Shown in pieces: positions 7,322 to 52,824 of a DNA stretch of 52,824 bases. The stretch comes from a virus, in the IMG/VR virus record IMGVR_UViG_3300031576_000058, positions 1-52,824 of that record; one strand, given 5' to 3'. The translations under genes were made by a program, and so were the position numbers. The notes below the pieces were generated by a model that was not told the DNA's origin, searched no databases, and worked only from the letters and a program-made list of their open reading frames with translations. Each line of letters begins with the position of its first letter. The stretch's first letter is position 1.

Positions 7322-8734
7322 CTAGGCCCCCATCCAGGCGAGCGGACCGCCGACTTTCTTGGCCACCTTCTTCACCTTTTTCGGGGGTCGCAGCAGGTCC
7401 GGCAACGGGTAGAGCTTCGCGGCACCCAGCATGATGGCATCAACCGGGTGGCTGTGCAGACCCGACGCGCGTTTGTAGGCCTCGAGGGTCGGCGTCACCC
7501 GTCCCAGAGCATCCTTGGGGTAATGGGCCCCCCCGCGGAGTGCCTTTCGGACGATCTTGCAGTCCGGATCCACGACGAAAAGGGGCTTCCCTCGGATGTT
7601 CCGGCTCAGGACGGCCTTCAGGCTGTCCCGACGCTCCCGCCACTCGATGGCTCCAGCTTCGGGCGAGGCGTTCAGGAGGTCAATCATGGTCTTCACCGCG
7701 CTCCGCTGCGAGTTCGACTGCTCCCTGGTCGCCATGGCCGGATCCACGATGTCCCGAAACTGCCACTCCTCCCGATCGCCAAGGTACTGCGACTCCCACG
7801 GAAGCACCTGGGTCGTAATGAGTTGCTCGAGCCCGATGTTCTCCCCCCGGACCGCTCCCAGGATGTGCCAATGGCCTAGTTTGGTCGGCTGGGACCAAAT
7901 ACACGTAGGGTTCAGTCCCCCGTCCCACGTTCGCACGATCTCCACGCCCCGAATGATCGGGAGGGGCTTCTTGGCCGTATGCCAGTCATCGTTGTATTCG
8001 GGCATGAGCTGCTCCCCCAGGATGATTTGACCCACCTTCCCCTCGACGAGCCGGGAGACGAGGTCGCCACGGCCGATGGCGTAGAGCAAGGCCTTGTCCC
8101 GTTCCCGCTTCTCCCAGGAGATGTGGGGGTTCTCGCCTTTCGGGATCCGGAAGGACTCTGCCTTGAGCTCGCCGACCCTGAGTTCCTGGGCCAATTCCTT
8201 CAGCTTCTCCATGATCTCCATGGTCCAGTGGTCTTCGTCGGGCGGATTCATCGTAATCTGAATCCACGGCTCGACGCCCTTCTGCCGGAGCGAGGTGGCG
8301 CCGACGCCGAGCACTTCGGCTGCCACACCCCCGGAGATGTCAGCGGCCGGCGCCGGCTCCTCAATCCAGAGAGCCCCAATGCCGAAGCCTTGCAGCTTGT
8401 TGATATCCTTGGGGTTGTCCATGCCCATAAAGTAAAAATGCACCAAGCCACCACCGACAATGGCTTCAGTCTTCCCTTCGGCCCACTGGATTTCCAACCC
8501 CTCTTGTTCCTGCTCACGGATCGTCTCCATGACGGTCCGCTGCAGGTTGGCCCAGGTATCTCGAATGACCGCCATCCGGATGGGGAGAAACTGCGGATTG
8601 GTCTGTTTTGCTCGATAGATAGGCTTAAACAGGCCGCCCGTCGTCTTGCCCTCCCCCCGGGGACCCATAAGCAAGGTCAGGAAGGCGTCCGACTGCATGA
8701 AGTCCCGAACCGTCTTTGTAGCGACAAACCTCAC
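7322..8734 (-). CDS. Terminase large subunit (TerL)
   Basis: 470 residues; the ATP-driven DNA packaging motor and nuclease. Walker A GPRGEGKTT is at residues 24-32 and Walker B ALWIEEP at 121-127. The C-terminal RNase H-like nuclease has candidate acidic residues D271 (TWDGG), D331 (DIVDPA) and D432 (HPVDAIM). The C-terminus is Lys-rich. It overlaps TerS by four bases. Length is normal for a podovirus terminase. All key motifs look intact. Confidence 0.95.
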   Translation of the reverse strand: MRFVATKTVRDFMQSDAFLTLLMGPRGEGKTTGGLFKPIYRAKQTNPQFLPIRMAVIRDTWANLQRTVMETIREQEQEGLEIQWAEGKTEAIVGGGLVHFYFMGMDNPKDINKLQGFGIGALWIEEPAPAADISGGVAAEVLGVGATSLRQKGVEPWIQITMNPPDEDHWTMEIMEKLKELAQELRVGELKAESFRIPKGENPHISWEKRERDKALLYAIGRGDLVSRLVEGKVGQIILGEQLMPEYNDDWHTAKKPLPIIRGVEIVRTWDGGLNPTCIWSQPTKLGHWHILGAVRGENIGLEQLITTQVLPWESQYLGDREEWQFRDIVDPAMATREQSNSQRSAVKTMIDLLNASPEAGAIEWRERRDSLKAVLSRNIRGKPLFVVDPDCKIVRKALRGGAHYPKDALGRVTPTLEAYKRASGLHSHPVDAIMLGAAKLYPLPDLLRPPKKVKKVAKKVGGPLAWMGA

Positions 8735-9039
8735 TCGTCAGGCTCCTCTTTTTCCTTCTGCTCAAAGACGATCTCCACCTTCTGTTTCTCCTTGATATCT
8801 ATAGCCTGCCTTGGCCGCCCCTCTGCCCGATCCCAGACCATCCCAACGTAATGGTGCGCCGTTTTCGGACCGCTGTTGATCCCCCTGACCATCGCACCCA
8901 CCATGTCCTTCATCCGATGCTGAATCAGGTAATCTCTCAAGGCCCTCATGCTGTCCCGGGGGATCTTATCTTTCGAGCCCTTGGGGCGGCCAGCGTTGCC
9001 CTTCTGAAACGGCCGTCCCCTTTGTTTTCTGTCACCCAT
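8731..9039 (-). CDS. Terminase small subunit (TerS)
   Basis: 102 residues, directly upstream of and overlapping TerL. The N-terminal Gly-Arg-Lys motif (PFQKGNAGRPKGSKDK) is characteristic of a class of phage terminase small subunits and related DNA-binding proteins. The C-terminus is a highly charged Lys/Glu tail that could contact TerL. It recognises the packaging start on viral DNA. This is the first gene after the RNA cassette at 9076-9137, so its expression, and that of everything downstream to the portal, should depend on read-through there. Confidence 0.82.
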   Translation of the reverse strand: MGDRKQRGRPFQKGNAGRPKGSKDKIPRDSMRALRDYLIQHRMKDMVGAMVRGINSGPKTAHHYVGMVWDRAEGRPRQAIDIKEKQKVEIVFEQKEKEEPDE

Positions 9040-9075: not shown

Positions 9076-9120
9076 AAAACAAAAGGCCCGTACCGACAGG
9101 CTTCCCGATCAGCATGGGCG
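9076..9120 (-). terminator. Intrinsic terminator upstream of TerS
   Basis: Reading the minus strand from 9119, GCCC pairs with GGGC at 9089-9086. Between them an inner stem CTGATCGG / CCTGTCGG (with G-U pairs) closes a GAAG loop. CTTTTGTTTT follows (9085-9076). It is a near-complete 15 bp stem plus T-tract, pointing toward TerS. Confidence 0.8.
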
Positions 9121-9137
9121 CTCAACAGAGTCGGCCC
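9086..9137 (-). promoter_or_regulatory. GGGCCGACTC RNA switch, copy C (terminase operon)
   Basis: Minus strand 9137-9116 reads GGGCCGACTC, TGTT, GAG, C, GCCC. GGGC can pair with GCCC, with CTC/GAG inside. That GCCC (9119-9116) is also the 5' arm of the terminator, so the two folds exclude one another. The same architecture recurs at 33651-33703 and 51778-51818. Expected effect: terminator on or off ahead of terS/terL. This is inferred from sequence conservation and pairing; the trigger is unknown. Confidence 0.75.
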
Positions 9138-9385: not shown

Positions 9386-9646
9386 TCATTCACCCCGCTC
9401 TCCGTCAGTCCCAGCCATCCCCGTCTCCACCCGAGCCACCACCAGATGTTCCTCGCTCCCACACTTCCCACAGACCACGCGCTCCGCTTCGGTCTTCAGG
9501 GCTCTACGCGCTAGATGCCCCCGGATCAGGGACAGGGATATCTTCCCCGTCCATGCCCCGCCTGGCAGGTTAAAGTCCAGCCGGGAGGCCCTTTGCCCGT
9601 TCGGCGGACTCACCGTGATCGAGACCCGCGTGGTCTGCTCCCCCAT
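9386..9646 (-). CDS. Small protein with C-x2-C motif
   Basis: 86 residues: an N-terminal beta-rich half (TRVSITVSPPNGQ, LDFNLPGG), then a helical segment and a single CGKCG knuckle near residue 60. Possible monomeric or dimeric zinc binder. It follows the 9654 gene closely on the cargo transcript. No family recognised. Confidence 0.65.
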   Translation of the reverse strand: MGEQTTRVSITVSPPNGQRASRLDFNLPGGAWTGKISLSLIRGHLARRALKTEAERVVCGKCGSEEHLVVARVETGMAGTDGERGE

Positions 9647-9653
9647 GGGCCTC

Positions 9654-9980
9654 CTAGTGCCACCAGCCGTCGTGGGCCGGCAACCAGACCCGCCCGCGCG
9701 CCGCCGTCTTCGGGTGGAACACGAACATGCTGACCATCTTGACGCCAGTTTCCCGGGTCACCTCAGGCTCCACCGGCATCGGGATGATGAGCATACTGTC
9801 TCCCCCCCGGAAGGTGAGCCGGGTGACGCTATAGCCTTCGTCGGTTTGCGCCCCAGACTCGACATTGGCGATCTCTTGCCCCACCAAGAACTCGCGGAGG
9901 TCCTTGTTGATCGGGGCCGCATCCCTGACCCGCCATCCCTGGCTCAGGGATCGCATGACCTTCTGGATCAGGTTCGCCAC
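9654..9980 (-). CDS. Hypothetical protein, beta-rich
   Basis: 108 residues. The N-terminus is helical and basic. The central part has strands (EGYSVTRLTFRGGDSMLIIPMPV), and the C-terminus is VWLPAHDGWWH. No motif identified. It lies in the run of small genes between the O-antigen polymerase-like gene and terminase, with three bases to the next gene. Confidence 0.65.
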   Translation of the reverse strand: MANLIQKVMRSLSQGWRVRDAAPINKDLREFLVGQEIANVESGAQTDEGYSVTRLTFRGGDSMLIIPMPVEPEVTRETGVKMVSMFVFHPKTAARGRVWLPAHDGWWH

Positions 9981-11171: not shown

Positions 11172-12311
11172 CTATCTGCCCGCCCAACACGCCCGGATCC
11201 GTGCCGCCGCAAACAGGACAATCATGGCCTGCGCCGGCCAATGGAACAGGTTGGTCAGCCACATCGCCACCCCGGCCATCAGGACTACCATGCCCCAGGC
11301 CTGCTGGATCCGGTCATCACTCTGGACCGCGACGGTCGCATCGAGAAGGCACCGTGCCGCAAAGAGGCCCCACACAATCACCCCGATCAGCCCGAGCTCG
11401 AAGAGCACTTGGAGCGGCTCGTTGAACGCCTCCGTAAACACGGCGGACGAGGCCCCATAGGTCTGCACCATCACGCCCTCGGGCCACAACACCCAGTTGC
11501 GCCACATCCCCGGGCCGATCCCGGTCCAGGGAGCGACCGTCCACCACTCGGAGAGCCCCAGGACCCACGGGCGAACTCGGCCCCCCAAAGTCAGGGTACT
11601 GGACCAATCGCGGACCAGCAGGATCCCCGCGAGCATCCCGACCCCACTGACCGCGACGAGTTGTCGAGAGCGGCCGCGCATCCAGATCACGAACAAGGGG
11701 ATCAGTGAGACGAGGACTGGTAGCCGAGACCTCGAGGAGAAGATCAGGGCGTACCAAACGACCGTAAAATATAGTATTTGCGCGCCGTTGAGCCGTTCGC
11801 CCAGGAGGGCCCACGCCACCGGGTAGGCCATGGCCAGGTAGAGGCCCCAATAGTTCGGATGGGAGAGGAGCCCAACGGGCCAATACATGAAACCCTCCTT
11901 GACGATCAGGCCAGGGTAGATCCCGACGATGTTCAGGACGCCAAGGACGGCATTCACACCAGCGGCAAGGAGGATGCCGTGGGCAACCATACGCTCGGTC
12001 GATGACTTCATCTCGAGAGCAAGGCCGTACAGGATCGCCGACAGCACGAGCAGGCCCAGGACCTCGATGGACCGCGGCGGCAGTCCGAGCAGGATCGCTT
12101 TCACGGCTGACCAGACAACGGGGAGGCAGAGCCAGGGTTCGATCCGCCACAGAAAGAGGGCGAGGGCGATGCCTCCGAAGAGCCACAGCAAGACGAGGGG
12201 AAGGTGCTGGAGCGGGTCGAAGTTGAGGCTGAAGCTGATGGGGAGCGGGAGGGCCGAGGTGACTATCAGCCCCGCCCACATCGCCGAGCTGTAGGACCAT
12301 CGACGCCACAT
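11172..12311 (-). CDS. O-antigen polymerase/ligase-like membrane protein (Wzy_C type)
   Basis: 379 residues, about ten membrane segments. The family-type large loop with W-x-G-I-G-P-G-M-W (WTGIGPGMWRNW) follows SRSRLPVL and is flanked by LLSHPNYWGLYLAM. This matches bacterial O-antigen ligase/polymerase proteins that join or polymerise lipopolysaccharide O-units at the periplasmic face of the inner membrane. In a prophage it would change the lysogen's surface and block superinfection (serotype conversion). It is embedded in the cargo segment before terminase, with an AGGTG site upstream of the ATG. Enzyme specificity cannot be told. Confidence 0.72.
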   Translation of the reverse strand: MWRRWSYSSAMWAGLIVTSALPLPISFSLNFDPLQHLPLVLLWLFGGIALALFLWRIEPWLCLPVVWSAVKAILLGLPPRSIEVLGLLVLSAILYGLALEMKSSTERMVAHGILLAAGVNAVLGVLNIVGIYPGLIVKEGFMYWPVGLLSHPNYWGLYLAMAYPVAWALLGERLNGAQILYFTVVWYALIFSSRSRLPVLVSLIPLFVIWMRGRSRQLVAVSGVGMLAGILLVRDWSSTLTLGGRVRPWVLGLSEWWTVAPWTGIGPGMWRNWVLWPEGVMVQTYGASSAVFTEAFNEPLQVLFELGLIGVIVWGLFAARCLLDATVAVQSDDRIQQAWGMVVLMAGVAMWLTNLFHWPAQAMIVLFAAARIRACWAGR

Positions 12312-15418: not shown

Positions 15419-15786
15419 GGCTGCTCTACTGAGCAGTCATGGCTCACTCCTTGCCGGATGCCTCCGATTCCTCTGCTGTGCATCGTTCGTTTGGCTGCGG
15501 CAAAGACAGAAGTGTGTATCTTGTGACTATACACCCACGGAAAGGACAGATGGTCGGGTTGAGTTGGAAGATAGAATCGAAACCCATAGGGTGACTTTTC
15601 CCAATGGAACCCCCGCTTTTCCATCGCCTCCACAACGAGGCCGATGCCATGCCAAGATTGAAGATCGCCACCGAAGTAACCTCTACCGCTTTCGTCATGC
15701 CATAGATGTTTAGAGGTTGGATACTTCGCGGGTTCCCACCCCAGTAACTCCTCAGCCACCCACTTGAGCAGGTCAAGGTCAGTCAT
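15406..15786 (-). CDS. Small phage protein, E/W-rich family
   Basis: 126 residues from the ATG at 15786. Recognisable layout of a common phage accessory protein: LLKWVAEELLGWE, later LQSWHGIGLVVEAMEKRGF, then a beta strand pair and a C-terminal AAAKR. The last ~25 residues look unlike the family and end inside the next gene, suggesting a late frameshift or new C-terminus. Function of the family is not known to me. Confidence 0.62.
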   Translation of the reverse strand: MTDLDLLKWVAEELLGWEPAKYPTSKHLWHDESGRGYFGGDLQSWHGIGLVVEAMEKRGFHWEKSPYGFRFYLPTQPDHLSFPWVYSHKIHTSVFAAAKRTMHSRGIGGIRQGVSHDCSVEQPCDL

Positions 15787-15869
15787 CGCCCCACCTTCGT
15801 TATGAACCACAAAACACCTATGCACATTAGGAGGATTGTCAATATAGGGGTATCAGTATTTATTGTCAT
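15783..15869 (-). CDS. 28-residue membrane peptide
   Basis: ATG at 15869 with AGGGGGA seven bases upstream; stop overlaps the next start as ATGA. The chain is a short polar start, one hydrophobic segment (ILTILLMCIGVLWFI) and a basic end, TKVGR. Looks like a genuine transmembrane micropeptide; a holin-modulating or regulatory role is possible but unproven. Confidence 0.5.
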   Translation of the reverse strand: MTINTDTPILTILLMCIGVLWFITKVGR

Positions 15870-29560: not shown

Positions 29561-32380
29561 ATGAGCCGGATCATCCTTGGCAAGTCCTGGGAGTCACAGC
29601 CGAAGAACATCTCCCTAGACCTCGATCTGTTGCTCCGGACCAGGATGCTTATCCAGGCCAACTCAGGAGGAGGGAAGAGTTATCTCCTCCGCCGCCTCGC
29701 CGAGCAGCTCTTCGGGAAGGTCCCAGTCCTCATCGTGGACCCCGAAGGCGAGTTCGCCACCCTCCGAGAAAAATATGGGTATGTCCTAGCTGGGAAAGGC
29801 GGGGAGACCCCGGCCGATCCTCGGTCGGCTGGGTTACTGGCCCAAAGGCTTCTCGAGCTCCAGGCCTCGGCGGTATGCGACCTCTACGAGATGAAGTTGT
29901 CTGACCGGCACCGATGGGTCCGGACCTTCTTGGAAGCGGTGATCGACGCCCCGAAGAAGCTCTGGCGGCCAACCGTGGTGGTCGTGGACGAGGCCCACAC
30001 ATTTTGCATGGACCCAGAAACAGAAATTCTGACAAGTTCCGGATGGAGAGGGATAACCGAAGTAGAAGTTGGGGATCGAGTTGTTGCCTTCGATCCAACG
30101 AGTGAATTATACCGAGAAGAACCTATTCGTCGGATCATAGTTCAAAATCACTCTGGGCCGATGGTAGGACTCACAAGCGATGGGATTGATGCGCTTGTTA
30201 CTCCAGACCACCGAGTAGTTTTGCGTCGAATGCAGCGGGCACAATATCAGGGTCGAAAAGAAAGCGTCAAGAAAAGGCGACCCAAATACCTCACCTTATA
30301 TCCATGGACTTTTTGTCACGCCTCTTCGGTTCCTCATCACGCATATATTCCAATCGGTGGAGGACCGGATGGTCCCGGTCTAGCAAGACTTTCAACGGAT
30401 CTAAGCCGCCTATTGGGCTGGGTTATTACGGATGGGAGCTTTGTGGGGTCGTGCGGCGGCAAATACTTGCGCTATCTTTCGATTTCCCAATCGACCGCGA
30501 CTCTCAAAGCAGGAAGAAGGATGATTGCTGAGATGCAATCCTTGCTCAGTCGATTTGGCTCGCATTCGGTATATTCACGGCCAGAAAGGGAAAGTGTGCG
30601 TCCTGATCGCACCGTGAGACACTCTCAGAGCAAAGAATTCTATCTCGGAGAGCGATTATCGCGTCTGGTGATGGGCTGGCTTGGTCCAGACATTCACCGA
30701 ATTCCCCGAGTCATTCTAAGCCAAGGGTCTAAGCATCAATTGCGAGCCCTATACCAAGGCCTCTTAGAGGGGGACGGAACCTCATACATGGGACGCTGGA
30801 CGACTTTTTATCCTGGGAAAAATGAGGGATTGGCTGACGATTTTCAGGAACTTGCAACAAGACTAGGAATCAGTACGACCAAGCGTTTTGTGTGGAGCAT
30901 AGGCCAATGGAGGGTCCTTATAAGCAAGCGACGTCACCACTATGTCCGGAAACCGAATTCCCATGTTTACTCTGGAATCGTCTGGGATATTACTGTTCCT
31001 TCAGGTGCTTTCGTAGCGAGGCGGCGAGGAAAGGTCTTTGTAACTGGAAATTCCCCCGAGAAAGGCCATGGGGAGTCGGAGGCGGCCGACGCCATGATCG
31101 GTCTGGCCACCCGGGGGAGGAAAAGGGGCTTCGCGGCCGTGTTCGCTACCCAGCGATTGGGGAAGCTCCGGAAGGACGTGGCGGCCGAGCTCCTCAACGT
31201 CTTGATCGGCCAGACCTTCATCGACATTGACCGGAAGCGGGCAGCCGAGGCCCTCGGTATCCCCCCGAACGAGCAGCGGCGCTTCTTCGACCAGATCAAG
31301 GTGATGGAGCCAGGAACATTCTGGGCCCTGGGCCGAGCCGTAGCGATCGAGCGGGTCCTCCTGAAGGTCGGGTCGGTGGAAACGACCCACCCGGAGCCAG
31401 GCTCCACAAAACATGCTGCGGCGCCCCCACCGCCCCCAGAGAAGGTCAAGGCCCTGCTGCCCAAGCTGCAGGATCTCCCAAAGGAGGCGGAGGATAAGGC
31501 GAGGACGGTAGCCGAGTTCCGGGCGGAGATCGGACAGTTGAAGCGGGAGCTGGCGGCGGCGAAACATACTGCGACTACGGTTCCACCATTGCAGCGTGAG
31601 CCACAAATCAGGGTAAAAGAAGTCAGGGTTCCGATGCTGAAGAAAGGCGATGTGGGCCGGATTGAGAAGGCCATTGCGTTCTTGGCAAAGGTTACAGATC
31701 GGATGGCCCGGGCTCAACAGGTTGTCGTGACCGAGTTGGGTCTGATGCGCGATGCGTTCAAGAAAGAGGCTGTAAAGCCCTATACAATCAGTGTGCCTCC
31801 ACCCACGAAACCAATACTTGACCAGCGCAGCCTCCACTTCAAGCAGCACGTTCGCAATGTGGTGGAAGGTGCGCGGCAACCACTGCGCATAGGTGATGAC
31901 TTCCACCCAAGAACCGTGGCTGGTTCCCTTCCCAGGGGAGAACAGATCAGCCTGACCGCCGTGGCGCAGTACCCAGAGGGCGTGGATCGTCAGCAGCTCT
32001 CCATTCTCACCGGCTACAAGCGGTCCAGCCGGGACTCCTACGTTCAGCGGCTCAAGGACCGAGGATTGGTGGGGGTCCGGGGTAACCGGATCATGGCCAC
32101 GGATGAGGGCCTCCTAGCATTGGGGTCAGATTTCGAGCCCCTTCCCACTGGCGAAGCTCTCCGGGACTACTGGATCCAGAAACTCCCCCAGGGGGAAAAG
32201 GCAGTCTTGCAGGTCTTATTGAAGGCCTATCCGGATTCGGTCGATCGGGATGCCATATGTGAGATGACCCAGTACCGCCGCTCCAGCCGTGATGCCTACC
32301 TGCAAAGACTCCGGGCCCGCCAACTCGTATCGGATGACGGGCCCAGAAGGGTTAAGGCGTCCCCGCTGCTTTTCGACTAG
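29561..32380 (+). CDS. HerA/FtsK-type ATPase with inserted intein
   Basis: 939 residues as translated; 590 after removal of the intein. Walker A ANSGGGKS at 33-40 and Walker B VVVVDEAH at 139-146; after the intein the ATPase resumes SPEKGHGESEAADAMIGLATRGRK, FAAVFATQRL and IDIDRKRAAEALGI, as in HerA/DUF87 translocases. C-terminal region is coiled coil plus two copies of a 34-residue winged-helix unit (804-837 and 890-923). Acts as a hexameric DNA pump in end processing, consistent with the annealing and exonuclease genes upstream. Last gene of the early operon, converging on the 32377 lipoprotein. Confidence 0.85.
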   Translation: MSRIILGKSWESQPKNISLDLDLLLRTRMLIQANSGGGKSYLLRRLAEQLFGKVPVLIVDPEGEFATLREKYGYVLAGKGGETPADPRSAGLLAQRLLELQASAVCDLYEMKLSDRHRWVRTFLEAVIDAPKKLWRPTVVVVDEAHTFCMDPETEILTSSGWRGITEVEVGDRVVAFDPTSELYREEPIRRIIVQNHSGPMVGLTSDGIDALVTPDHRVVLRRMQRAQYQGRKESVKKRRPKYLTLYPWTFCHASSVPHHAYIPIGGGPDGPGLARLSTDLSRLLGWVITDGSFVGSCGGKYLRYLSISQSTATLKAGRRMIAEMQSLLSRFGSHSVYSRPERESVRPDRTVRHSQSKEFYLGERLSRLVMGWLGPDIHRIPRVILSQGSKHQLRALYQGLLEGDGTSYMGRWTTFYPGKNEGLADDFQELATRLGISTTKRFVWSIGQWRVLISKRRHHYVRKPNSHVYSGIVWDITVPSGAFVARRRGKVFVTGNSPEKGHGESEAADAMIGLATRGRKRGFAAVFATQRLGKLRKDVAAELLNVLIGQTFIDIDRKRAAEALGIPPNEQRRFFDQIKVMEPGTFWALGRAVAIERVLLKVGSVETTHPEPGSTKHAAAPPPPPEKVKALLPKLQDLPKEAEDKARTVAEFRAEIGQLKRELAAAKHTATTVPPLQREPQIRVKEVRVPMLKKGDVGRIEKAIAFLAKVTDRMARAQQVVVTELGLMRDAFKKEAVKPYTISVPPPTKPILDQRSLHFKQHVRNVVEGARQPLRIGDDFHPRTVAGSLPRGEQISLTAVAQYPEGVDRQQLSILTGYKRSSRDSYVQRLKDRGLVGVRGNRIMATDEGLLALGSDFEPLPTGEALRDYWIQKLPQGEKAVLQVLLKAYPDSVDRDAICEMTQYRRSSRDAYLQRLRARQLVSDDGPRRVKASPLLFD
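30005..31051 (+). other. Intein (LAGLIDADG) in HerA-like ATPase
   Basis: Residues 149-497 of the ATPase frame. Starts Cys (CMDPETEILTSSG: splicing block A), block B TPDH at 214-217, LAGLIDADG-type motifs LLGWVITDG (284-292) and YQGLLEGDG (398-406), block F VWDITVPSGAF, end VTGN followed by Ser+1. Penultimate residue is Gly rather than the usual His. Removing it restores HTF-SPEKG of the ATPase. Lower G+C than the host gene indicates recent transfer. The insertion point is two residues after the DEAH box. Confidence 0.9.
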
Positions 32381-32780: not shown

Positions 32781-33254
32781 CTACTCGAGCAGGGCCCCCT
32801 GCGTCTTCTGGACGAAGCCGGTCACGGGCTCAGGGACCACAACGCCAGCTTGCGTCAGGATGTCGTAGGCGTTAAGAACGAAGTTGGTGATCTCCGTCAG
32901 GATCGACATAGGGGTAATGGCGTTGGGATCCGCCTTGGTGAGTTCCATCGCCCGCTTCGCTGCGTCCCACGCAATGTCGTAGCCTGCCGTGAGTTTCGCG
33001 CAGTTCTCCTTGGTCAGGGGCTTCATCCAGTTGGTCCTGAGTGTCTGAGCCTCGGCCACCAAACCTGCCGATTCGAGGGTACCCGCCTGCGAGTAGGCCC
33101 GATCCTTGGACTGGCGGCATCCCTTCAGGATCGTCTGCCCGAGAGCCACAACGACCTGGGCCGATTGCTGGGCCTTGCCATGAGGGGTCGTCGCACAGGC
33201 TGACAAGACAAACAGGCAGAGGACGACCAGCCCCATCGTTCGCTTACGCTTCAT
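32781..33254 (-). CDS. Lipoprotein of the lysis-like cluster
   Basis: 157 residues. Signal with lipobox LSAC, then an all-helical domain (VVVALGQTILKGCRQS, AAKRAMELTKADPN, LTEITNFVLNAYDILTQAG). Small helical lipoproteins next to a holin-like gene often act in envelope disruption or superinfection exclusion. Function unproven. Confidence 0.68.
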   Translation of the reverse strand: MKRKRTMGLVVLCLFVLSACATTPHGKAQQSAQVVVALGQTILKGCRQSKDRAYSQAGTLESAGLVAEAQTLRTNWMKPLTKENCAKLTAGYDIAWDAAKRAMELTKADPNAITPMSILTEITNFVLNAYDILTQAGVVVPEPVTGFVQKTQGALLE

Positions 33255-33286: not shown

Positions 33287-33619
33287 CTATGTGGTCGCCC
33301 CCGTCAAGGCCTTGATGCCACCGTTACTGAAGAACTTCAGGGCACCCCGAGCACCTACATAGGTCCAGATCGCATAGAGCGCCTCTAGGGGTACTCCAGG
33401 GAACAGAATCGGTACCCCGGTAGATGCCAGCGTGACCCAGAACTCGGTGGACATGATCCCGGCCTTGGCGTCTCCGCCGATCTTGGCGAACCCCCTGGAG
33501 CCGATGTACGTAATGATCCCCAGGAAGGCCTCCTTCGGCGCCTCGGGGAACACGTAGGTCAGGATCCCCCCGCCAACGGCCAACCAAAACTCTGTCGTTT
33601 TCCAGCCATCCCTTAGCAT
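33287..33619 (-). CDS. Tandemly duplicated holin-like membrane protein
   Basis: 110 residues made of two similar halves. Residues 8-46 contain TEFWLAVGGGILTYVFPEAPKEA and TYIGSRGFAK; residues 56-98 contain TEFWVTLASTGVPILFPGVP and TYVGARGALK. Each half has one or two membrane segments, and the 'TEFWL...' start matches known small phage holin-type proteins. First gene after RNA cassette B; strong GGAGGGAGG site. Confidence 0.7.
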   Translation of the reverse strand: MLRDGWKTTEFWLAVGGGILTYVFPEAPKEAFLGIITYIGSRGFAKIGGDAKAGIMSTEFWVTLASTGVPILFPGVPLEALYAIWTYVGARGALKFFSNGGIKALTGATT

Positions 33620-33642: not shown

Positions 33643-33685
33643 AAAAAAAACCCGCGACGAGGGTGGAATTACCCTCAATCGCGGG
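33643..33685 (-). terminator. Intrinsic terminator before holin-like gene
   Basis: Minus strand CCCGCGA (33685-33679), a GAGGGT/ACCCTC-stem, TCGCGGG (33657-33651), then T8 (33650-33643). A textbook hairpin with U-tract, 24 bases before the holin-like ATG. It would block read-through from the giant gene and from the local promoter unless relieved. Confidence 0.9.
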
Positions 33686-33703
33686 CTCTCTACGAGTCGG
33701 CCC
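33651..33703 (-). promoter_or_regulatory. GGGCCGACTC RNA switch, copy B (holin/lipoprotein operon)
   Basis: Minus strand 33703: GGGCCGACTC, GTA, GAG, A, GCCC (33686-33683), whose CCC also starts the terminator arm CCCGCGA. So either GGGC-GCCC or the terminator can form. Promoter 33716-33746 places the RNA start a few bases before GGGCC, so the transcript begins with the switch. Confidence 0.8.
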
Positions 33704-33715
33704 GAAATCTAGGTT

Positions 33716-33746
33716 ACTATATACCAGTATATATCGAGAATGTCAA
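33716..33746 (-). promoter_or_regulatory. Strong sigma-70-type promoter, copy B
   Basis: Minus strand TTGACA (33746-33741) overlapping the TGA stop of the giant gene. TGG then TATATA at 17-base spacing and TATAGT at 19 (33721-33716). An extended -10 TG is present. Transcription start would fall ~7 bases on, just ahead of the RNA switch. Confidence 0.75.
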
Positions 33747-36700
33747 GGCCTTGCTGGCATCATCTTCCTGAAGACCTTGGGTCCCTCATGGATGCGCCGT
33801 TCCGCCCTCGGGATCTGGGATTCACGGAGTCGTGGTCTCAGACGGTTTCGGATATCCCGGCTGGTGATCGGAAACTCGGGATAGAGGGCGTTCCATCGGT
33901 CAATGTCGTCCTTGCCTGGGCTGGTCTCCAAGACCACATCGGCCCCTTCGAGGCGCTGTTGCGCCCGGAGCGACACGACCCGGTCGATGACCGCATCCCG
34001 CCGCTTTCTGACCTCGACATAGGCTGACAGGATCATGTCCTGCTCCGAGGCCGTCAAGGACCGGAAGCCCGCCATGTTCAGGAGTACGTCCTTCAGATCC
34101 CCCTTGAACTTGAGCATCCCCTTGGGGTCCCGGAAGTCGTAGTCCCCCTCCCAGATTTGTCTGAGGCCTTCCGTCCAGCGGAGCGCCGGTGCCCGCTGTC
34201 TTAGAGCGGATATCAGACGTTTGGCTGGCTCTGGGACCACCCCCTTCTCCTCTCCAAGCGCAGCCTCTCCGCCAGCCAAGGCTAGGCTCCCCAGTGGTCC
34301 CAAGGCCACGTTGCCGATCGCCTCCGGGACGCTCTGGCCTCGCGGCACGTCCACCATCTGGACCGAGTAGGAGAAGTCGATGCCCAGCAGTCCCGGGAGG
34401 CCGTAGGCGATCAGGTTGGCGATCGTCTCCCCGTACTCTTCCTTGATGCGGTTGTAGAGTTCCAGGGTGATGTAGGCCCCGCCCGCAATGGCGATGAGGG
34501 GATTCAGTAGGCCCTTCATCCCACCAATGCCAATGTTGGCTCCCAGCCATTTGCCCGCCCCGACAAAATCCTTGTCGGCCAACAGGTCCGCGATCAGCTC
34601 GAGGTTCTTGATCTGAAAGCGCCGGAACTGGAAGATCGTGGATTTGACCGGAGCGGTCAGGCCTGTGGACATGGCCCGATAGAGCGCCCGTGGCTGGTCC
34701 GTCCGCAGTCCAAGGAACTGACTGTAGATGTTCCCGCGGAGGAAGGCGTATTCGGCTGCCTGGGCATCTTCCAGTCCCATCTTTCGCGCCTTCAGGTACA
34801 TGGTCAGGAAGGCGACCTCTTGGTTGAAGGTCTCAGGGGCTAAGCCCCGCAGTTGCTCGCGGAACCTCGCCATCTTGAATCTCTTCAATGGCCCCGCCTC
34901 TCCGACAAACTTCCCGCCGGCGAGGAACCGGACCCCGTGCTTCTCCAGAAGATCCTTGCCGATCAGCTCTTCGCCGCTCTCAAGGGTCACCTTCCCCAGG
35001 TAGAGCCGCCGACCATTCACAAACTCCCTCGTGCTGACGATCGGCCAAAGCGTCTGGAACGTCTGGAGGCGGTTCAGGAAGTGGAATCGCGGGCTCAGGT
35101 TCAGGAAGAGATACGCGGACAGAGATTTCGCGCGGTTGGTCCACCGTTCCAAGGCGAACGGCCGGTGGAAATGGCTAAGACCTGGGATCCGCTCCAAGAG
35201 GTTGTCGAGCATCTGCGAGGTCTGGCTCTTGTAGCCCCACAGGATATTCAGGTTTGCCTCAAGCTCATCGGCCAGCGTCGATCGCCCCGATTTTCGCACC
35301 TTGTCGATCAGGGGTTGGACGGCTCGCCTCGCGTCGGTGACGTGAATCCACCGGGTCAGGCCATGGTTGTAGATACCCAAGACCCACTCGAGGTCTTGGC
35401 TGAATCCCGGATAGCCCTCCCGGTGCCGCAGCGACCCCCACCACTTCTTCTTGCCCTCCTTGGTGCCGATGACTCCCTTAAAGGCCCAGGACACATCTTC
35501 GGCCCCAATATCCATGGCGTCGGCGATCCGGTTAATGACCATCCACCGCCTCGGCCTCGACACCCGGACTACGTCAGGGTTCACAAACTGCCGCTGATCC
35601 ACCACATACATCTCCGCCGTCCGCTCGGGGTTGCTGGCATGGTCCTCGTTGATTCTCTTCATAGCCTCGTACCGAGTCCGGGCCGTCCCGATAAAGGCCA
35701 TCCCCTCGTCGGCCTTGACGAAGATCCGGAAGTCGCCGGGGAAGATATGGGGCAAATACTTGTCGATCCCCCACTCGTCCGGGATCATGCGCTGCAGCTC
35801 TTCGGTCGTCTCCTTGGCGACCCGTTTCCGGACCTCCTCGAGCTGTTCCGCCGTCCGACGATGTTTGCCTTCCGGAATCGGGATCTCCTCCCGGACCTTC
35901 GTGTCGATCCGGTCCTCGACCGCGGGCCTCAGATCTTCGCGCATCCGCTCGATGATGAGCTGCCGGTCCGCATCGAACTTCTCCCGGAAATACCGGGCCG
36001 CCTCCTTGGTCTCCTGGGAGATGTCGGTCCGGGCCTCGATCGCCTCAATATCCTTACCCTCGAAGATGTCCCAAAAGACCTCCCCGGTCTTCCCGAAGTC
36101 GGCCTTCGGGATCCGCCCTGTGGCCTCCAGGTCGGTCTCCATCCGGCGACCGAACGCGATGCGCTGGTTGATCTCGCCCAGGTTCAAGGCCCGGATCGCG
36201 GCGGCCGCTTCTGGACCGTAGCGCCGAAGCACGTTCGAGGGGGTGCCGATCATCGAGAGCCAGCCGTAGTCCTTCATCGGCTTCTGGATGATGACCTTGG
36301 GTCCCTGGCCGGAGACCCGCCGCTCCTCTGCCCTGCCCTCGCGCTGCCATTCTTGGAGCCGCTCAGCCCATTCGTCTTGGGGTTCCTCACCGAAGTCGGC
36401 TTTCGGCTCAGAGACGCGGTAGGCAGGCCGAGCCCCCTCTGCCGCCCGCAGCCTCAGACGCTCGCCCTCCCTGAGCCTTCCCAGTGTATAGCCACCTTCA
36501 AGCACGCCGATGCCGTGATCCAGGATAACCCCCCCGTCGATGTACCTCTGGGCCGCCCGCTTGATTGCCTCTGCTTGTTCGCCCTTGTATTCCGGATAGA
36601 AGCTCAAGGCCGATGTAGCCCCGTATTCTCGTTGCCGAGCCCGCACATAGTCCACTAACTCTCTCCCCCGGAGGAACTTGGCCACCGGCACATCCTCGAT

Positions 36701-39700
36701 CGCCCGTGAAGTAATACCGGAGCGGTATATAAGCGAAACGTAGCCCTCGGGTGTCTTGAGCTGCTGCCCGATGCGGACGAGGTGCTGCCCGTCCTCCACC
36801 CGGACCCCGATGAGATCGTGGGCCAGCTCCGGCACGAAGAATTGCGCCTCGCCCGCAGGAATCCGATGGGCTTTTTCGGCTACCCCTTTCGGAGTGGTCC
36901 TGAGAACGGTATAGACGCCAGAATCGATGATGACGTGGCCTTTCATGCCGGGGAGCATTGCACTAAAGGTCTCCGTCAACTGAACATCGCTATCAGAGGC
37001 AGAGGTCATCCCGCTCGGGTGGTTGTGGAGCATCCAGTACCCATCCGCCCCGAGCCGCTCCATCCGTCGCTTCATGCCCTCGATGGTTCTCGCAACATGC
37101 GTCTCCCTGGGCCCCCTTTGCAGAAAAGCCTCAGCCGACCCCGGCATCCGTGACGTAATACCCTCATGGGCGACGATCTTTCCTTCCTTGACATAGAAGA
37201 TTCGTAGCGTCTCGAATTGCGGGTTGCGGAACACCTGGGCCAGCCCTGCGAGGTCCTGGGCCGTGTGGACCGTCTGGCCCCGGAGGTCCACCCGTCCCTT
37301 TTGGTACAGCTCCCGGGTAATTCCGATGCCGAGGATTCTGGCGCCGGCCGCACCGGGAATCCCACGGGGCAGCTTTCCGGAGACCGTAGAGGCCCCTTGG
37401 ACCGACTGCTCCACGTCCGCGATGGCCTCCTGCGCTCGGACTAGATCGGATTCGGGGGAGTCGGGCCGTCTTTGGTAGAACGGCTTGGGTAGCGGCTCCT
37501 CCACGCGAGTCGGTGTCGGCGCCTTGACCTCGGGTGCCTTCGGGGGGAACCGCTCCAAGAGCCGCCCGATTTCCTGCTCCGGGATATGGAAGAAGTTGCC
37601 GGCTGGAGAGTATTTGGCCCCATGGCGGAGGAGCTGGTCGCGCTGGGCCATCTTGGCGTTCTCGATCTTGATAAGGCCATCCTGGCGCTGCCGCAGCTCG
37701 TACTGGTCCGCCCCCTCCAGTGGCACACGATCGCCAGCCTTCAGGGCCTCCATGACCTGCTCTGGCGTCTCCAGCCGCTCGCGGCCCAGCTTGTGACCGA
37801 AGTTCTCCGCCAGCATCGGCATGGTCCCGCGCCTAATCTCGAGGCCGGAGATTTGCCGGTCACCGGCATTGAAGGTGACGTAGCTCCGCTTCGGCACCTC
37901 TCCAGCCGCACCGTATTGTCCAACCACCCTGGCCAAAGGTAAATACCTAGCAATCCGATCCATGTGGGGAGTGATGAGGCCCTGGAGGATCCCAAATCGG
38001 TGTCCGCTCTCGTCCTTGACTTCGTGGAGGACCAGTTGTGGTTGGAGTTCCGTGGACCGGACGACCTCGCCCCGGTACTTCCGGGTCTTGGCAAACTCCT
38101 CCGCCTCCTCCTGCTCTGCCAGCAACGCCTTTCGCTTCTCCCAAAATCTATCGAACGCTTCGTTCGACGCTTCGAGCGGCATGAACTGGAGATCCAGCAA
38201 GAAATCTTTCAAGCTGGCCACCGTGGGGTCTTTCGGCAGATCCCGGTATTCGATCATGCCCTCGCGGGTGATGCCTTTCGCTTCCATGGGGGAAGGAGTC
38301 GGAAGTGATGGTGGTGGAGCCTCTGGCAATTCCGGCGTTACGGCCTTTTCTATCTTGCCCAATGCCACCTTCATCCAGTCAGGTTGATCTACTAGAACGT
38401 GCCGAGGTGCTTCGTATGGGGTGGCCTCTCCAGGAGTGACCATCCCCTGCTGCACATCTTTCCACTGTGGGGCGTTGAACACCTCGCCTTGTGGCAGATT
38501 TTGCACTAGCTCCATAATCTGATCCCGGTAGCCTTGAGCGATGCGTCCAATAGCACTCCTCGGGATCATCATTCTGTCTGCCATTCCCTCAAAGCCCGTG
38601 TCTATCCCTGGCTCACCGGCAGCTTTCTTTCTCAACCGGGAAGTGGCTGAGAAGAGGTCCTTGTGGTTGGCGTCCGGGAAAATCACTCGGACTGATCCCT
38701 TCTTCCCACGACCGATGAAGATGCTTCTCGCCGGGACGGCCTCAATAGCCTTGGTCGGAGGTGCGAGTTCCGGCTGTACCGCTGTCGGTGGCCTCTCGAA
38801 CAGTGGCGTCTCCTCGACGGGACGCACCTCGGCACCTTCGGGGGCACGGATCGGCTCTCTTGGGACCTCGCGGGGCGGGGCAAAGGTCATCTGGCCGGGG
38901 GTGAACGGCTCTTCGCGGATGGTAGGTGCTACTGGAGAGACCACGGGCTGAGGAACCTCTCCCGCTCTTATTTCCTCAGCCGACGGAATGTTGAGCTTTG
39001 ATCTCACGGACCGGATCATGGTCCGTGCGTCCGAGAGACCAATGTTGTTAAAGCCAAACTCTGGCTTCATCTGATCGAATACTTGGGCAGCGACAAGACC
39101 CTGCCTACTCAACTCAGAGATTCTGTCGGAGAGTCCCAGCCTTTGAGAAAGGGCAAACTGTCTGTCAATCTCCTCTTGGATATAATCTGGAACGGACTTC
39201 CTTGTGGCTTCCTCTGGTATTTGGGCAGGAGCGGGGGCTACTGCTGGTGCCACAGGAGCCGCCGGTGGCGGCGTCACCAACGCCTCGAGCCGCTCCGCCT
39301 CTTGGTCTCGCGCCAACTCCTCGAGCGCTCCCGAGAACCGCTCAAAGCCCACTTCGGTCGGCTCAAGGCCGGTCTCGACGTACATATCCCTTGCCTCGTC
39401 GGCAGTGATCCCAGCCTTCAGCCGATCAAGTATTTCCAGGTAGAGCGGATTCTCCTTGTCGCGGCGGATCGCCGCCACGATCTGAGACGGGCTGGCGGCA
39501 ATGCCTTGGAGCTCTGGGAAGAGTGACTTGAAGCCACCGACTCTCCGGTATTCTCCTGGCTCCCCCACCAGCTTGCCGGTCGGTGTGGCCTCAGAGACTT
39601 CCTGGAGGGCATCGGCAAGGCCAGTAGCCTTCCCCTCAGCAATCACGTCGATTGGACTCTTTTCCACAGCCTTTTCCACTGGTGGGGCTGCAGGAGGAGC

Positions 39701-49644: not shown

Positions 49645-50724
49645 CTAAACGTTAGATCTGTGAACGCGAACAGCGATCAATCCGTTATCCTGGGCGTTGA
49701 AGACGGCCTTGGTCACCTCGAGGATCGCCCCGATGGCAAAGCCGGTCTTGTTCGCATAGTCGAACGCCTGCTCCACCCACTCCGGCTTTTGACCCCAAGC
49801 GTAAGCACCAGCTTGGCGGCCGCAGAGCAGGTTTTCCGAGCCGTTCAGGTTCGAGGCTGATCCCCAGTTGGTAGTCACAGCCACGCGGGTACAGGACCGG
49901 ATAACCACCCCGTCATAGATCCCTTCCGCCCCGGTAAAGAGCGGGTTCTGGTTGCCGCGGACCTGCGCCTCACGCTGCGCCTGCGCCCAGTTGGGGTCCA
50001 AGGTCTTGAGATCGTGGAGCGAGTCCGGGCTGACCACGAGCAGGAAATACTCGCCGCCATCGATTTGCACCGGAAAGATCTGCGGGGTGGCCTTGCGGGC
50101 CACGGTCTTGGCCCTCGTGATGAGCGTCAAGGTCAAGATGTCGCCACTCTCGATTGTGGCTGTGGAGACCGCATCGCCTCCATAGACCGCCCGGGTCGGC
50201 GAAGTGGACAGCGCCGTAAAGATGCGGTTGTCGATAAACGCGGCGAGCCAGTCCTTGAGGAGCTGCTTCGCCGTCATGCGCTGACTGAAGGCGGTCCGGC
50301 GCTCGGACATTCGGCCCCTCAGCCGTACCGCGTTCCGGAACTGGTCGAGCGTGACGTTATCGCTGAAGAAGCTCACCGCCTCCTCGCTGCCCTCCAGGGT
50401 CGCATCACCTTGGATGCCGGCACCCGTGAGCTGTCTCGCCAGGGTAAATGTGATCGTATCGCCCGGATTGGCTTTCAGTTCCTTCTTCACCTGAATCACG
50501 CTGTTCGGACTCTCTTGCATGTACGGGCCCCAAAAGACCCGCTCCGGCAGTTCGATCCAGATATCCTCCGCCCACCGCTTGGCGGTTTCGGCGGCCCCAG
50601 CGGTCACCTCCGTATCGACACCGCCGACCATGGGCGGGACCAAGAGCACGAACAGGAACAGGGCCAGCCCCGCAAAGCCTCTGTTGGCCAGCCATAGACA
50701 CAATCGCACTTTCCAACTGGTCAT
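49645..50724 (-). CDS. Major capsid protein, N4-gp56 type, with hydrophobic N-terminus
   Basis: 359 residues. From residue 43 the chain follows the N4-gp56 capsid family: RWAEDIWIELPERVFWGPYM, VKKELKANPGDTITFTL, QLTGAGIQGDATLEGSEEAV and VRLRGRMSERRTAFSQRMTA, and later DPNWAQAQREAQVRGNQNPLFTGAEGIYDGVVI in pieces. Residues 1-42 are instead hydrophobic (LWLANRGFAGLALFLFVLLVPPM), resembling a signal anchor. The ATG at 50724 has AGGAGG upstream; the inner ATG at 50631 has none, so the hydrophobic start is real. Downstream of scaffold by ten bases. Confidence 0.85.
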   Translation of the reverse strand: MTSWKVRLCLWLANRGFAGLALFLFVLLVPPMVGGVDTEVTAGAAETAKRWAEDIWIELPERVFWGPYMQESPNSVIQVKKELKANPGDTITFTLARQLTGAGIQGDATLEGSEEAVSFFSDNVTLDQFRNAVRLRGRMSERRTAFSQRMTAKQLLKDWLAAFIDNRIFTALSTSPTRAVYGGDAVSTATIESGDILTLTLITRAKTVARKATPQIFPVQIDGGEYFLLVVSPDSLHDLKTLDPNWAQAQREAQVRGNQNPLFTGAEGIYDGVVIRSCTRVAVTTNWGSASNLNGSENLLCGRQAGAYAWGQKPEWVEQAFDYANKTGFAIGAILEVTKAVFNAQDNGLIAVRVHRSNV

Positions 50725-50734
50725 CCGTCTCCTC

Positions 50735-51634
50735 CTACCCTTGCAGGTACCACTCCCACATCTCCTTCCTGTTTTTCTTGATCCACGCCTTTTGCTCGTC
50801 GGTCATCGCGTCGATCTGGCGCCTAGTGAGACCTGTCTGCGAAGACGTGGACGACGGCATGGTCGCGATACCCCGGGGTTTGCTGGCATTGTCGATGACT
50901 TTCGTGACGATCTCTTTCCGCCCGCGCTTCGCCCCGCGCTCTTCGATCTCGGTGGTCGAGGCCTCGTCCTCCTCGCCCAGCTTGCCTTTGGCGTACTCGT
51001 AGGCGGTCAACGCGGGGTTTTCGCTCAGGTAGATCATGTTCCACAGGAACGGATCCTTGGCCTTCCCTGTGCTGGGGTCGATCTTCACGGCCTCAAGCAC
51101 GCCGGCCTTAGCCAATACGTCGTCAAATTCGTCCACGCGGGATCGCATGATCTCCTGCGACAACGTGACCTTCGCCTGGATGCTCTCCATCCGGACTTTG
51201 CTCAGGTCCCGGCTGAACTCCTCCTTGATCTCGGACCGGACGGCCGTGACGAGCTCGTTCAGGTCGGCCATTTGGTTGTAGTCTTTGGATGCGGCGGGCT
51301 TGTCTGCCGCATCATCGGCCCTGCGCCGCTGTTCCTCGTCGAAGCGCCGACGCATCTGCTCGACTTCTTGGTACAGGCGCTTCCGCTTGCCGCGCTCCTC
51401 GTCCAGGGCCTCCTTGCGGACCATCTTCGGGGCTGGCGCGGCGGACGGCTCTTCGGTGACCTGTTCCTCTGTGGGCTCAGGGGTGCCGACCTCCAGACCC
51501 GCCTTCGGAAAGTCCTCGGGCAAGTCGATCTGGACCGCCTCCTCCCCTGCGGGCGGATCGAGCACGGCGGTCGCCGCCGTGGGTTCTGTCTCTACCGCTG
51601 GTGCGGCTTCGGGTTCCTTCTTCTTCCTTGCCAT
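50735..51634 (-). CDS. Scaffolding protein
   Basis: 299 residues. Acidic Ala/Pro/Glu-rich N-terminus (LPEDFPKAGLEVG region), a long coiled coil (EERGKRKRLYQEVEQMRRRFDEEQRRR), and a basic C-terminus (KNRKEMWEWYLQG). Length, charge layout and position directly before the capsid match phage scaffold proteins (P22 gp8-like). Guides procapsid assembly and is lost before packaging. Confidence 0.8.
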   Translation of the reverse strand: MARKKKEPEAAPAVETEPTAATAVLDPPAGEEAVQIDLPEDFPKAGLEVGTPEPTEEQVTEEPSAAPAPKMVRKEALDEERGKRKRLYQEVEQMRRRFDEEQRRRADDAADKPAASKDYNQMADLNELVTAVRSEIKEEFSRDLSKVRMESIQAKVTLSQEIMRSRVDEFDDVLAKAGVLEAVKIDPSTGKAKDPFLWNMIYLSENPALTAYEYAKGKLGEEDEASTTEIEERGAKRGRKEIVTKVIDNASKPRGIATMPSSTSSQTGLTRRQIDAMTDEQKAWIKKNRKEMWEWYLQG

Positions 51635-51765: not shown

Positions 51766-51802
51766 GCAAAACGAAATGCCCACCGGGTTTCCCCGATGGG
51801 CA
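51766..51802 (-). terminator. Intrinsic terminator before scaffold gene
   Basis: Minus strand TGCCCATCGGGG (51802-51791) pairs with CCCGGTGGGCA (51787-51777) around GAAA-type loop, followed by TTTCGTTTT (51776-51768). Eleven-bp stem with one mismatch. Located between RNA switch copy A and the scaffold start. Confidence 0.85.
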
Positions 51803-51818
51803 CTCTAAGAGTCGGCCC
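51778..51818 (-). promoter_or_regulatory. GGGCCGACTC RNA switch, copy A (scaffold/capsid operon)
   Basis: Minus strand 51818: GGGCCGACTC, TTA, GAGT, GCCC (51801-51798). GGGC/GCCC plus ACTC/GAGT can form one stem; the same GCCC is in the terminator's 5' arm, pairing with GGGC at 51781-51778. Same logic as copies B and C, here heading the whole head-tail structural operon. Confidence 0.78.
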
Positions 51819-51833
51819 CTCTAGTGATCTACC

Positions 51834-51866
51834 CTTATGTTCGCCACACGATCAGGCGATTGTCAA
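51834..51866 (-). promoter_or_regulatory. Promoter upstream of scaffold operon (copy A)
   Basis: TTGACA on the minus strand (51866-51861) starts nine bases after the portal stop, as in copy B where it overlaps the stop. The -10 is weak (CATAAG at 51839-51834; 21-base spacer). Either a suboptimal promoter or one using an activator. Confidence 0.45.
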
Positions 51867-51875
51867 CAAAAATCT

Positions 51876-52824
51876 CTACGTGGCCAGGCCTCCGAGGAGA
51901 CCCGCCCTCGAGGTTGCTTGGTCCTGGACAGCATCCACCGCTTCGGGCGTGGCTGCCTGGACGAGTTTGGACGGCGCCCCCGGGGTCCCGCCGCCACCTG
52001 GGGCCGGAGGGGCCTCTGGACCTTGCTGGCCCTGCATAATCTGTCGGACCCGCTGCAGGACCCGCTGGCGATCCGGAATATCGGTCAGTTCGATGATGAT
52101 ATCCACCAAGGCCGGGGCCAACTGCGGCACCTTGTCAAGGAGTTCCATGAGCATCACCAAGCCGGCCGCTCGGGCCGTGGGCGTCGACGGGGAATCCGAG
52201 ATGGTCATGTCGTACTTCAGCGATGGGATGTCCCGCTCCACCGTCACGCGCCCGCGCTTCTCGTCGATCTTGCGCTGGTTGATCGTGACAAACGCCGTCC
52301 CCCCGGACTCCTCATCCAGCCTGAGCGTCATTTCCGAGGTGTAAATCTGCTGGACGCGCTTGGCCAGACGTTTCCCGAAGATCCGCCGTGATCGCCGGTA
52401 GTTATCAAACAGGCCAGTGCTCCCCACTTGCCCCTGCTGTTGCAGCCGAGCAATGGCGATGCCGGATTGCGCCTGGGACGGTTGCCCCTGGAGCGGGGCG
52501 TTCACGAGGCTGATCTCACGGATCTCCTGCTTGGAAATCTGATCCTGGGCCATAACCCATTGGGGCATTTGCGGGACCTCGACGACTTCCGGCTTGGAGT
52601 TGGGATTCTTCCGCCATCCTACATTCCCCGCCCCCGCCCCTTCCGTCAGGAACTCCGGATTCTCAAGGTCGGTTCGCATCGCCAGCCACCGGAGATTGCC
52701 GAACCTCACGATGTTGTCAATTACCGAACTCCGGCGCTTATTCACTTCTCGCTGGGGGTCCTTCAGGTTCCGGACCAAGCCGAAGATCTCATCCCCCTCC
52801 CAATACCCCAAGAAGGGAACGAAG
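51876..52824 (-). CDS. Portal protein, C-terminal part
   Basis: Continuation of the gene at 1-1190 across the circular join: residues ~353-668 of the joined protein. Contains FLGYWEGDEIFGLVRNLKDPQREVN, WRKNPNSKPEVVEVP and the coiled-coil near EIREISLVNAPLQGQPSQAQSG, typical of P22-type portals whose barrel is helical. Stop TAG at 51876. Its 3' end abuts the promoter of copy A. Confidence 0.88.
   Translation of the reverse strand, partial: FVPFLGYWEGDEIFGLVRNLKDPQREVNKRRSSVIDNIVRFGNLRWLAMRTDLENPEFLTEGAGAGNVGWRKNPNSKPEVVEVPQMPQWVMAQDQISKQEIREISLVNAPLQGQPSQAQSGIAIARLQQQGQVGSTGLFDNYRRSRRIFGKRLAKRVQQIYTSEMTLRLDEESGGTAFVTINQRKIDEKRGRVTVERDIPSLKYDMTISDSPSTPTARAAGLVMLMELLDKVPQLAPALVDIIIELTDIPDRQRVLQRVRQIMQGQQGPEAPPAPGGGGTPGAPSKLVQAATPEAVDAVQDQATSRAGLLGGLAT
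52693..52824. repeat. Terminal direct overlap, right copy
   Basis: Matches 1-132 apart from one base (52698 G versus 6 T). See left copy; unique circle length about 52,692 bases. Confidence 0.93.

Follow-up and report, generated by a model that had tools for sequence, protein, structure and literature searches.

The window analysed here is the whole of IMG/VR virus record IMGVR_UViG_3300031576_000058, 52,824 nt. Its two ends (1-132 and 52693-52824) overlap by 132 bp with a single mismatch at base 6, so the map is a complete circle of about 52.69 kb, though the record is not marked circular. Among named phages, the major capsid protein (MCP) has its nearest matches, of about 32 per cent identity, in Bcep22-like podoviruses and others. 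In scans of genome contigs, the MCP returned no match and the terminase large subunit (TerL) returned two distant MAG matches. The late genes run on one strand from copy A of a short element through terminase and, across the contig ends, portal to copy C, then through the scaffold-position gene and MCP to a 2557-aa gene and copy B. The features needed below are:

7322..8734, minus strand: TerL (phrog_2, E=9.5e-13)
8731..9039, minus strand: putative small terminase subunit (TerS), first gene after copy A, named by position; no family match
9076..9119, minus strand: intrinsic terminator of copy A, whose arm begins with the shared GCCC (9119-9116); GGGC at 9089-9086; U-tract CTTTTGTTTT
9116..9137, minus strand: antiterminator-type hairpin of copy A (GGGC CGA CTC TGTT GAG C GCCC), before TerS and TerL
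9386..9646, minus strand: 86-aa CxxC protein immediately upstream of copy A, the lead candidate for a trans factor
32781..33254, minus strand: lipoprotein-like protein (lipobox LSAC)
33287..33619, minus strand: 110-aa hydrophobic (holin-like) protein, first gene after copy B
33643..33686, minus strand: terminator of copy B (GCCCGCGATTGAGGGT...ACCCTCGTCGCGGG, followed by T8)
33683..33703, minus strand: hairpin of copy B (GGGC CGA CTC GTA GAG A GCCC)
33716..33746, minus strand: sigma70-like promoter, TTGACA-17-TATATA (or TTGACA-19-TATAGT), 12-14 nt before copy B
49645..50724, minus strand: MCP (phrog_334, E=2.5e-75)
50735..51634, minus strand: scaffold-position gene (30-39 per cent with relatives; no PHROG match)
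51768..51801, minus strand: terminator of copy C (GCCCATCGGGGAAACCCGGTGGGC and ATTTCGTTTT)
51798..51818, minus strand: hairpin of copy C (GGGC CGA CTC TTA GAG T GCCC), at a portal-scaffold junction common to five relatives
51861..51866, minus strand: TTGACA, a -35-like hexamer upstream of copy C, with a weak -10 (GAACAT) at a spacer of 18

Several other genes deserve mention. The single 2557-aa gene (33743-41416, minus strand) lies between the tail genes and copy B and contains a stretch of about 300 aa conserved in relatives. A 939-aa protein (29561-32380, plus strand) combines a HerA/DUF87-type ATPase with a LAGLIDADG-like domain, possibly an intein. A 379-aa multi-pass membrane protein (11172-12311, minus strand) has no family match and is conserved (about 33 per cent) in G011-G013; judged by eye, it resembles proteins of the O-antigen ligase/polymerase type. 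In another locus, L051, a terminase gene at about 1720-2820 has an apparent intein or homing-type insert immediately upstream of the match.

The 10-mer GGGCCGACTC occurs at 9137-9128, 33703-33694 and 51818-51809, each time on the minus strand, at the positions that an earlier reading of the sequence by itself (hereafter the sequence-only reading) had given. All three copies share the pattern GGGC-CGA-CTC-N3/4-GAG-N-GCCC. With one mismatch allowed the 10-mer has eight matches in the window against 9.5 expected, which is unremarkable. The full pattern GGGCNGACTC-N2-6-GAG-N-GCCC is found three times against 0.00 expected from 100 dinucleotide shuffles; what exceeds chance is the hairpin and terminator together, rather than the 10-mer by itself. 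The inverted repeat is asymmetric, with 3-4 nt between the arms on one side and 1-2 nt on the other, which suits an RNA hairpin.

Each hairpin passes straight into a terminator, its final GCCC forming the base of the terminator's 5' arm; this re-use, proposed by the sequence-only reading, is present in all three copies. A strict terminator scan of both strands (fold of -19 kcal/mol or lower and at least six T in nine) found the three element-linked terminators to be the only sites of such strength on either strand of the window. A looser scan added weaker sites, at about the frequency of shuffled sequence. The same early reading had named terminase, holin/lipoprotein and scaffold/capsid operons downstream, and our annotation agrees: TerL follows copy A, the hydrophobic and lipobox proteins follow copy B, and the scaffold-position gene and MCP follow copy C.

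Relatives were retrieved through their MCP, TerL and portal proteins. Six of them carry the element, in other letters, at one or both of two orthologous junctions, the one ahead of terminase and the one from portal to scaffold, which brings the total to ten copies in seven phages. The seven copies outside the window are:

G002, before TerS: GGGC AGA CGCGT ATC ACGCG C GCCC, with a long terminator
G002, between portal and scaffold: GGGC AGA CGCG AACCA CGCG C GCCC, with a long terminator
G001, before TerS: GGGC GGGA CGC ATTGAC GCG C GCCC; second hairpin present, no U-tract
G011, portal-scaffold: GGUC AAG CCGC GGACA GCGG AC GGCC
G012, portal-scaffold: GGUC AAG CCG AACAA CGG AC GGCC
G013, portal-scaffold: GGCC AAG CCG AACCA CGG AC GGCC
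G014, portal-scaffold: GGGC CAAC CCG ACAC CGG CA GCCC

The common architecture is an outer stem of 4 bp, a 5' bulge of 3-4 nt and an inner stem of 3-5 bp, in a hairpin of 21-26 nt, and in all ten copies the 3' strand of the outer stem is the start of the terminator arm. G011-G014 are the more distant relatives (portal identity 32-41 per cent). The element-linked terminators of G011, G012 and G013 fold at -27.5 to -28.7 kcal/mol and are far stronger than any other found in those contigs (31, 89 and 39 kb), and in the looser scan the two strongest terminators of G002 are likewise element-linked. The element is absent from the portal-scaffold junction of G001 and G003. None was found in G007, and none was seen in the TerL relatives G006-G008 (32-42 per cent) or the more distant G009. 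In the Klebsiella phage LASTA, a distant isolate, 8 bp separate the portal gene from the next gene, leaving no space for such a leader there, so that the element marks a shift in regulation among the members of the wider group.

A covariance model built from six copies scored its own members at 25.6-32.5 bits, with the next best hit at 16.7 in 0.94 Mb, and missed the differently lettered copies of G011-G014, which were revealed only through reading the orthologous junction. A scan blind to letters, requiring the overlapping architecture and a U-rich tail, recovered, in the loci covered, the G011-G014 copies and the TerS copy of G002, along with scattered matches of a chance type. The exact window-type pattern had seven matches in IMG/VR, all attributed to chance (GC-rich, without a matching terminator). 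Of seventeen matches to the G002-type pattern, two were real (both in G002 itself) and the others were rejected.

The letters of the stems change in pairs. A formal pair count on a six-copy MAFFT alignment was weak because one row was misaligned; since MAFFT also gapped the second set, nine copies were aligned by hand for the count of pairs. Outer pair 3 is GC in six copies, UG in two and CG in one; inner pair 2 is UA, GC and CG in three copies each; and inner pair 3 is CG in six and GC in three. G014 adds GC, CG and GC at these respective positions. The independent events behind these counts are few, about two at inner pair 2 and one or two at the others. The terminator arms that pair with the shared strand have also changed, with pairing kept. 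When the upstream 36 nt were shuffled, an equally good overlapping hairpin arose in 0.7-7.6 per cent of trials per site; part of the sites share ancestry, and their probabilities cannot be multiplied as if independent. The sequence-only reading had staked itself on further copies and covariation in related phages, and the relatives bear both out, with the element at orthologous places and compensatory substitutions in its stems.

Its view of the hairpin and terminator as alternative folds is also supported, for the shared strand makes the two mutually exclusive. Such a shared strand with mutual exclusion, the arrangement of an overlapping-hairpin attenuator, was found in the three window copies and the seven in relatives, the G001 copy lacking a U-tract. 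Enforcing the outer stem of the first hairpin costs from 2.5 (copy A) to 15.5 (G001) kcal/mol relative to the terminator fold. The greater stability of the terminator fold predicts termination (‘off’) as the default, unless something holds the first hairpin. Once the first hairpin has formed, the base of the terminator is lost and, in most copies, the remaining stem lies several nucleotides from the U-tract. In copy A a residual 6-bp hairpin can still abut the U-tract, which makes this copy the weakest case.

Promoter evidence differs among the copies. For copy B, none of 500 shuffles equalled the best call, and an own promoter is well supported by the sequence there, the sole copy so graded. 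A -10-like TAGATT also lies immediately before copy B. Q antitermination would call for a -10-like pause element in the initially transcribed region together with a QBE in the late promoter, for which this clade offers no consensus. Copy C, the portal-scaffold copy of G002 (G2_C) and the G014 copy have fair promoter candidates (equalled by about 3 per cent of shuffles or fewer), and no candidate stood out at the remaining copies.

Downstream of terminator C, the scaffold leader (51750-51640, minus strand) contains another conserved block, as does L164 at about 7490-7680. In G011-G013 this block consists of a hairpin (e.g. CGTCGGCCCTTGGATCCGACG / CGGCGGCCCTTGGATCCGCCG) followed by CGGGTGCCACCCCG...CAAGGC, and the window version is TCGGGCGCCACCCCGGTCACCAAGGC. 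It is possibly a second structured RNA; it has no Rfam match.

Six of the seven phages encode a small CxxC protein just upstream of an element. The 86-aa protein of the window is 36 per cent identical over 42 aa to the G002 protein upstream of that phage's copy A. Between this window/G002 group and the proteins upstream of the element in G011-G013, hhalign gave a weak relationship (probability 48 per cent, E 1.8e-4), and in G014 the protein upstream of the element, also short and with a CxxC motif, is linked to them by that motif alone. Structure models of two of the small upstream proteins were of low confidence (pLDDT 60 and 49). By location and motif, the CxxC protein is only a lead as a candidate trans factor. 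Next to it in the window lies a gene for a 108-aa protein (9654-9980, minus strand), whose homologues in G001 and G002 are tandem double domains encoded slightly upstream of the late leader. A further protein encoded upstream of copy A in G001 and G002, a zinc finger of the DnaJ type, matches Q-like PHROGs weakly; it was set aside as a factor, being missing from the window's phage.

We propose, at a probability of roughly 0.6, that each copy acts in cis as a transcription attenuator heading a late operon, released by a factor through the terminator-blocking hairpin. Transcription of the leader would yield the bulged hairpin first (outer 4 bp, 5' bulge of 3-4 nt, inner 3-5 bp). Unaided, the more stable terminator would prevail and a short leader RNA would be released. 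A factor that depends on the phage or on infection, most probably a small RNA-binding protein of the phage that recognises the outer stem and bulge, would bind and stabilise the hairpin, and the held hairpin would block the base of the terminator stem and separate the stem from the U-tract, so that RNA polymerase reads on. A single factor could then turn on packaging, capsid and lysis genes jointly. Since the three copies have the hairpin in common, a single signal might plausibly release late transcription as a whole. We infer termination in vivo, the switching and the factor from features read directly in the DNA, namely the copies, their orthologues, the paired changes, the overlap and the hairpins with U-tracts.

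The sequence-only reading had likened the element to put-type or Q-type antitermination, and neither comparison holds up well. In put-like processive antitermination, the nascent hairpin would bind RNA polymerase and confer resistance to terminators without a protein. The element resembles HK022 put as a cis-acting phage RNA that would overcome termination, as a leader RNA near a promoter and in its bulged stem, and the window's phage has no identifiable known antiterminator protein, which is compatible with the protein-free action of put (PMC9378689). But put is about 70 nt long, forms two stem-loops and has a processive effect on RNA polymerase that reaches kilobases downstream (PMC9378689), whereas the element is one hairpin of about 21-26 nt that overlaps its own terminator. 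A processive element needs one copy and no overlap; the window has three copies, every one overlapping. We consider a put-like mechanism unlikely, though the least so of the alternatives. A Q-type system is placed just behind it: a Q-like protein would load on promoter DNA, with the hairpin incidental or a pause signal. The layout of promoter, short leader and terminator recalls lambdoid Q/pR'/tR', where late genes are controlled by terminator read-through past a short leader. Q is loaded through promoter DNA sites and a sigma-dependent pause (PMC6606751), whereas the hairpin here covaries and overlaps the terminator. Phage_antitermQ was not found among the seven phages, and searches of the window's phage with phrog_127, phrog_6060 and PF06530 gave no match. 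The Q-like signal of the zinc-finger proteins in G001 and G002, weak and confined to those two, is a generic DnaJ one.

The copies sit in intergenic gaps, and clear promoters were seen for some only, as would be the case if these were terminators of the ordinary kind, insulating one late operon from the next, with promoters internal to the series and the leader perhaps being a small RNA or the hairpin shaping termination. Yet a promoter, where seen, lies upstream of the terminator and would be cut off by it, and the overlap recurs in ten of ten copies with paired changes, so that we judge this reading improbable. More improbable again is a small-molecule riboswitch with a metabolite bound by the hairpin and bulge. 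The expression-platform logic is alike and the bulge is purine-rich, but the aptamer would be tiny, its loop and inner stem are unconserved, there is no Rfam match, and all copies precede phage structural or lysis-like genes. The hyphenated inverted repeat close to promoters could also be a DNA operator for a dimeric regulator, which we regard as very improbable: the half-site spacing is unequal (CGA versus N), the loop and inner-stem lengths vary by several nucleotides, the substitutions are paired, and in every copy the right half belongs to the terminator stem.

The anatomy fits local antitermination in the style of RAT or ANTAR, and a riboswitch fits less well. As with RAT (BglG/LicT/SacY), a short leader hairpin excludes an intrinsic terminator, and RAT is off by default and stabilised by protein (PMC3369936). 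ANTAR and LicT antiterminators shorten the terminator stem and separate it from the U-tract (PMC3369936), and leaders responsive to ANTAR proteins (NasR, EutV, AmiR) do so through an antiterminator hairpin (PMC3369936). Unlike RAT, the element precedes phage structural genes instead of sugar operons and is a single short hairpin with a 3-4-nt bulge; no CAT_RBD (PF03123) protein is encoded with it, none of the seven phage records having a match among phage-encoded proteins at E<=1. ANTAR leaders differ in having a pair of hairpins, in whose loops residues A1 and G4 are conserved, whereas the element has one hairpin, with a variable loop. Among the seven phages, only G012 encodes an ANTAR-domain protein (IMGVR_UViG_3300027815_000080, 15691-15846, plus strand; E 1.4e-13), and the window's phage has none. 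Nor did any of the seven encode a NusG-domain protein (PF02357), the test for a phage-encoded NusG paralogue of the LoaP/RfaH kind.

Rfam release 15 gave no matches at the gathering threshold in the window (0) or in the relatives, and at permissive thresholds the window copy regions gave none or matches far below threshold, in keeping with the sequence-only reading, which placed this consensus in no family. The part of the open literature covered describes no phage late-gene attenuator of this kind. We conclude that a clade of uncultured phages has a real and conserved attenuator-like RNA of a type not described before, and we have moderate confidence in the mechanism proposed for it. It is possible, at a more tentative level, that it represents a new family of phage RNAs whose bulged leader hairpin is bound by a small, phage-encoded, zinc-ribbon-like CxxC protein, which would thereby release several late attenuators together.

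To our knowledge, late genes of well-studied tailed phages are switched on by a new sigma factor, polymerase, activator or processive antiterminator. On the more tentative reading with the CxxC protein, late control in these phages would run through RNA antitermination that is local and spread over several operons, in place of a switch of sigma factor, RNA polymerase or Q. An RNA switch that stands before terminase, capsid and lysis-like operons and has persisted while its sequence turned over would be a further way to turn late genes on, here in uncultured phages.
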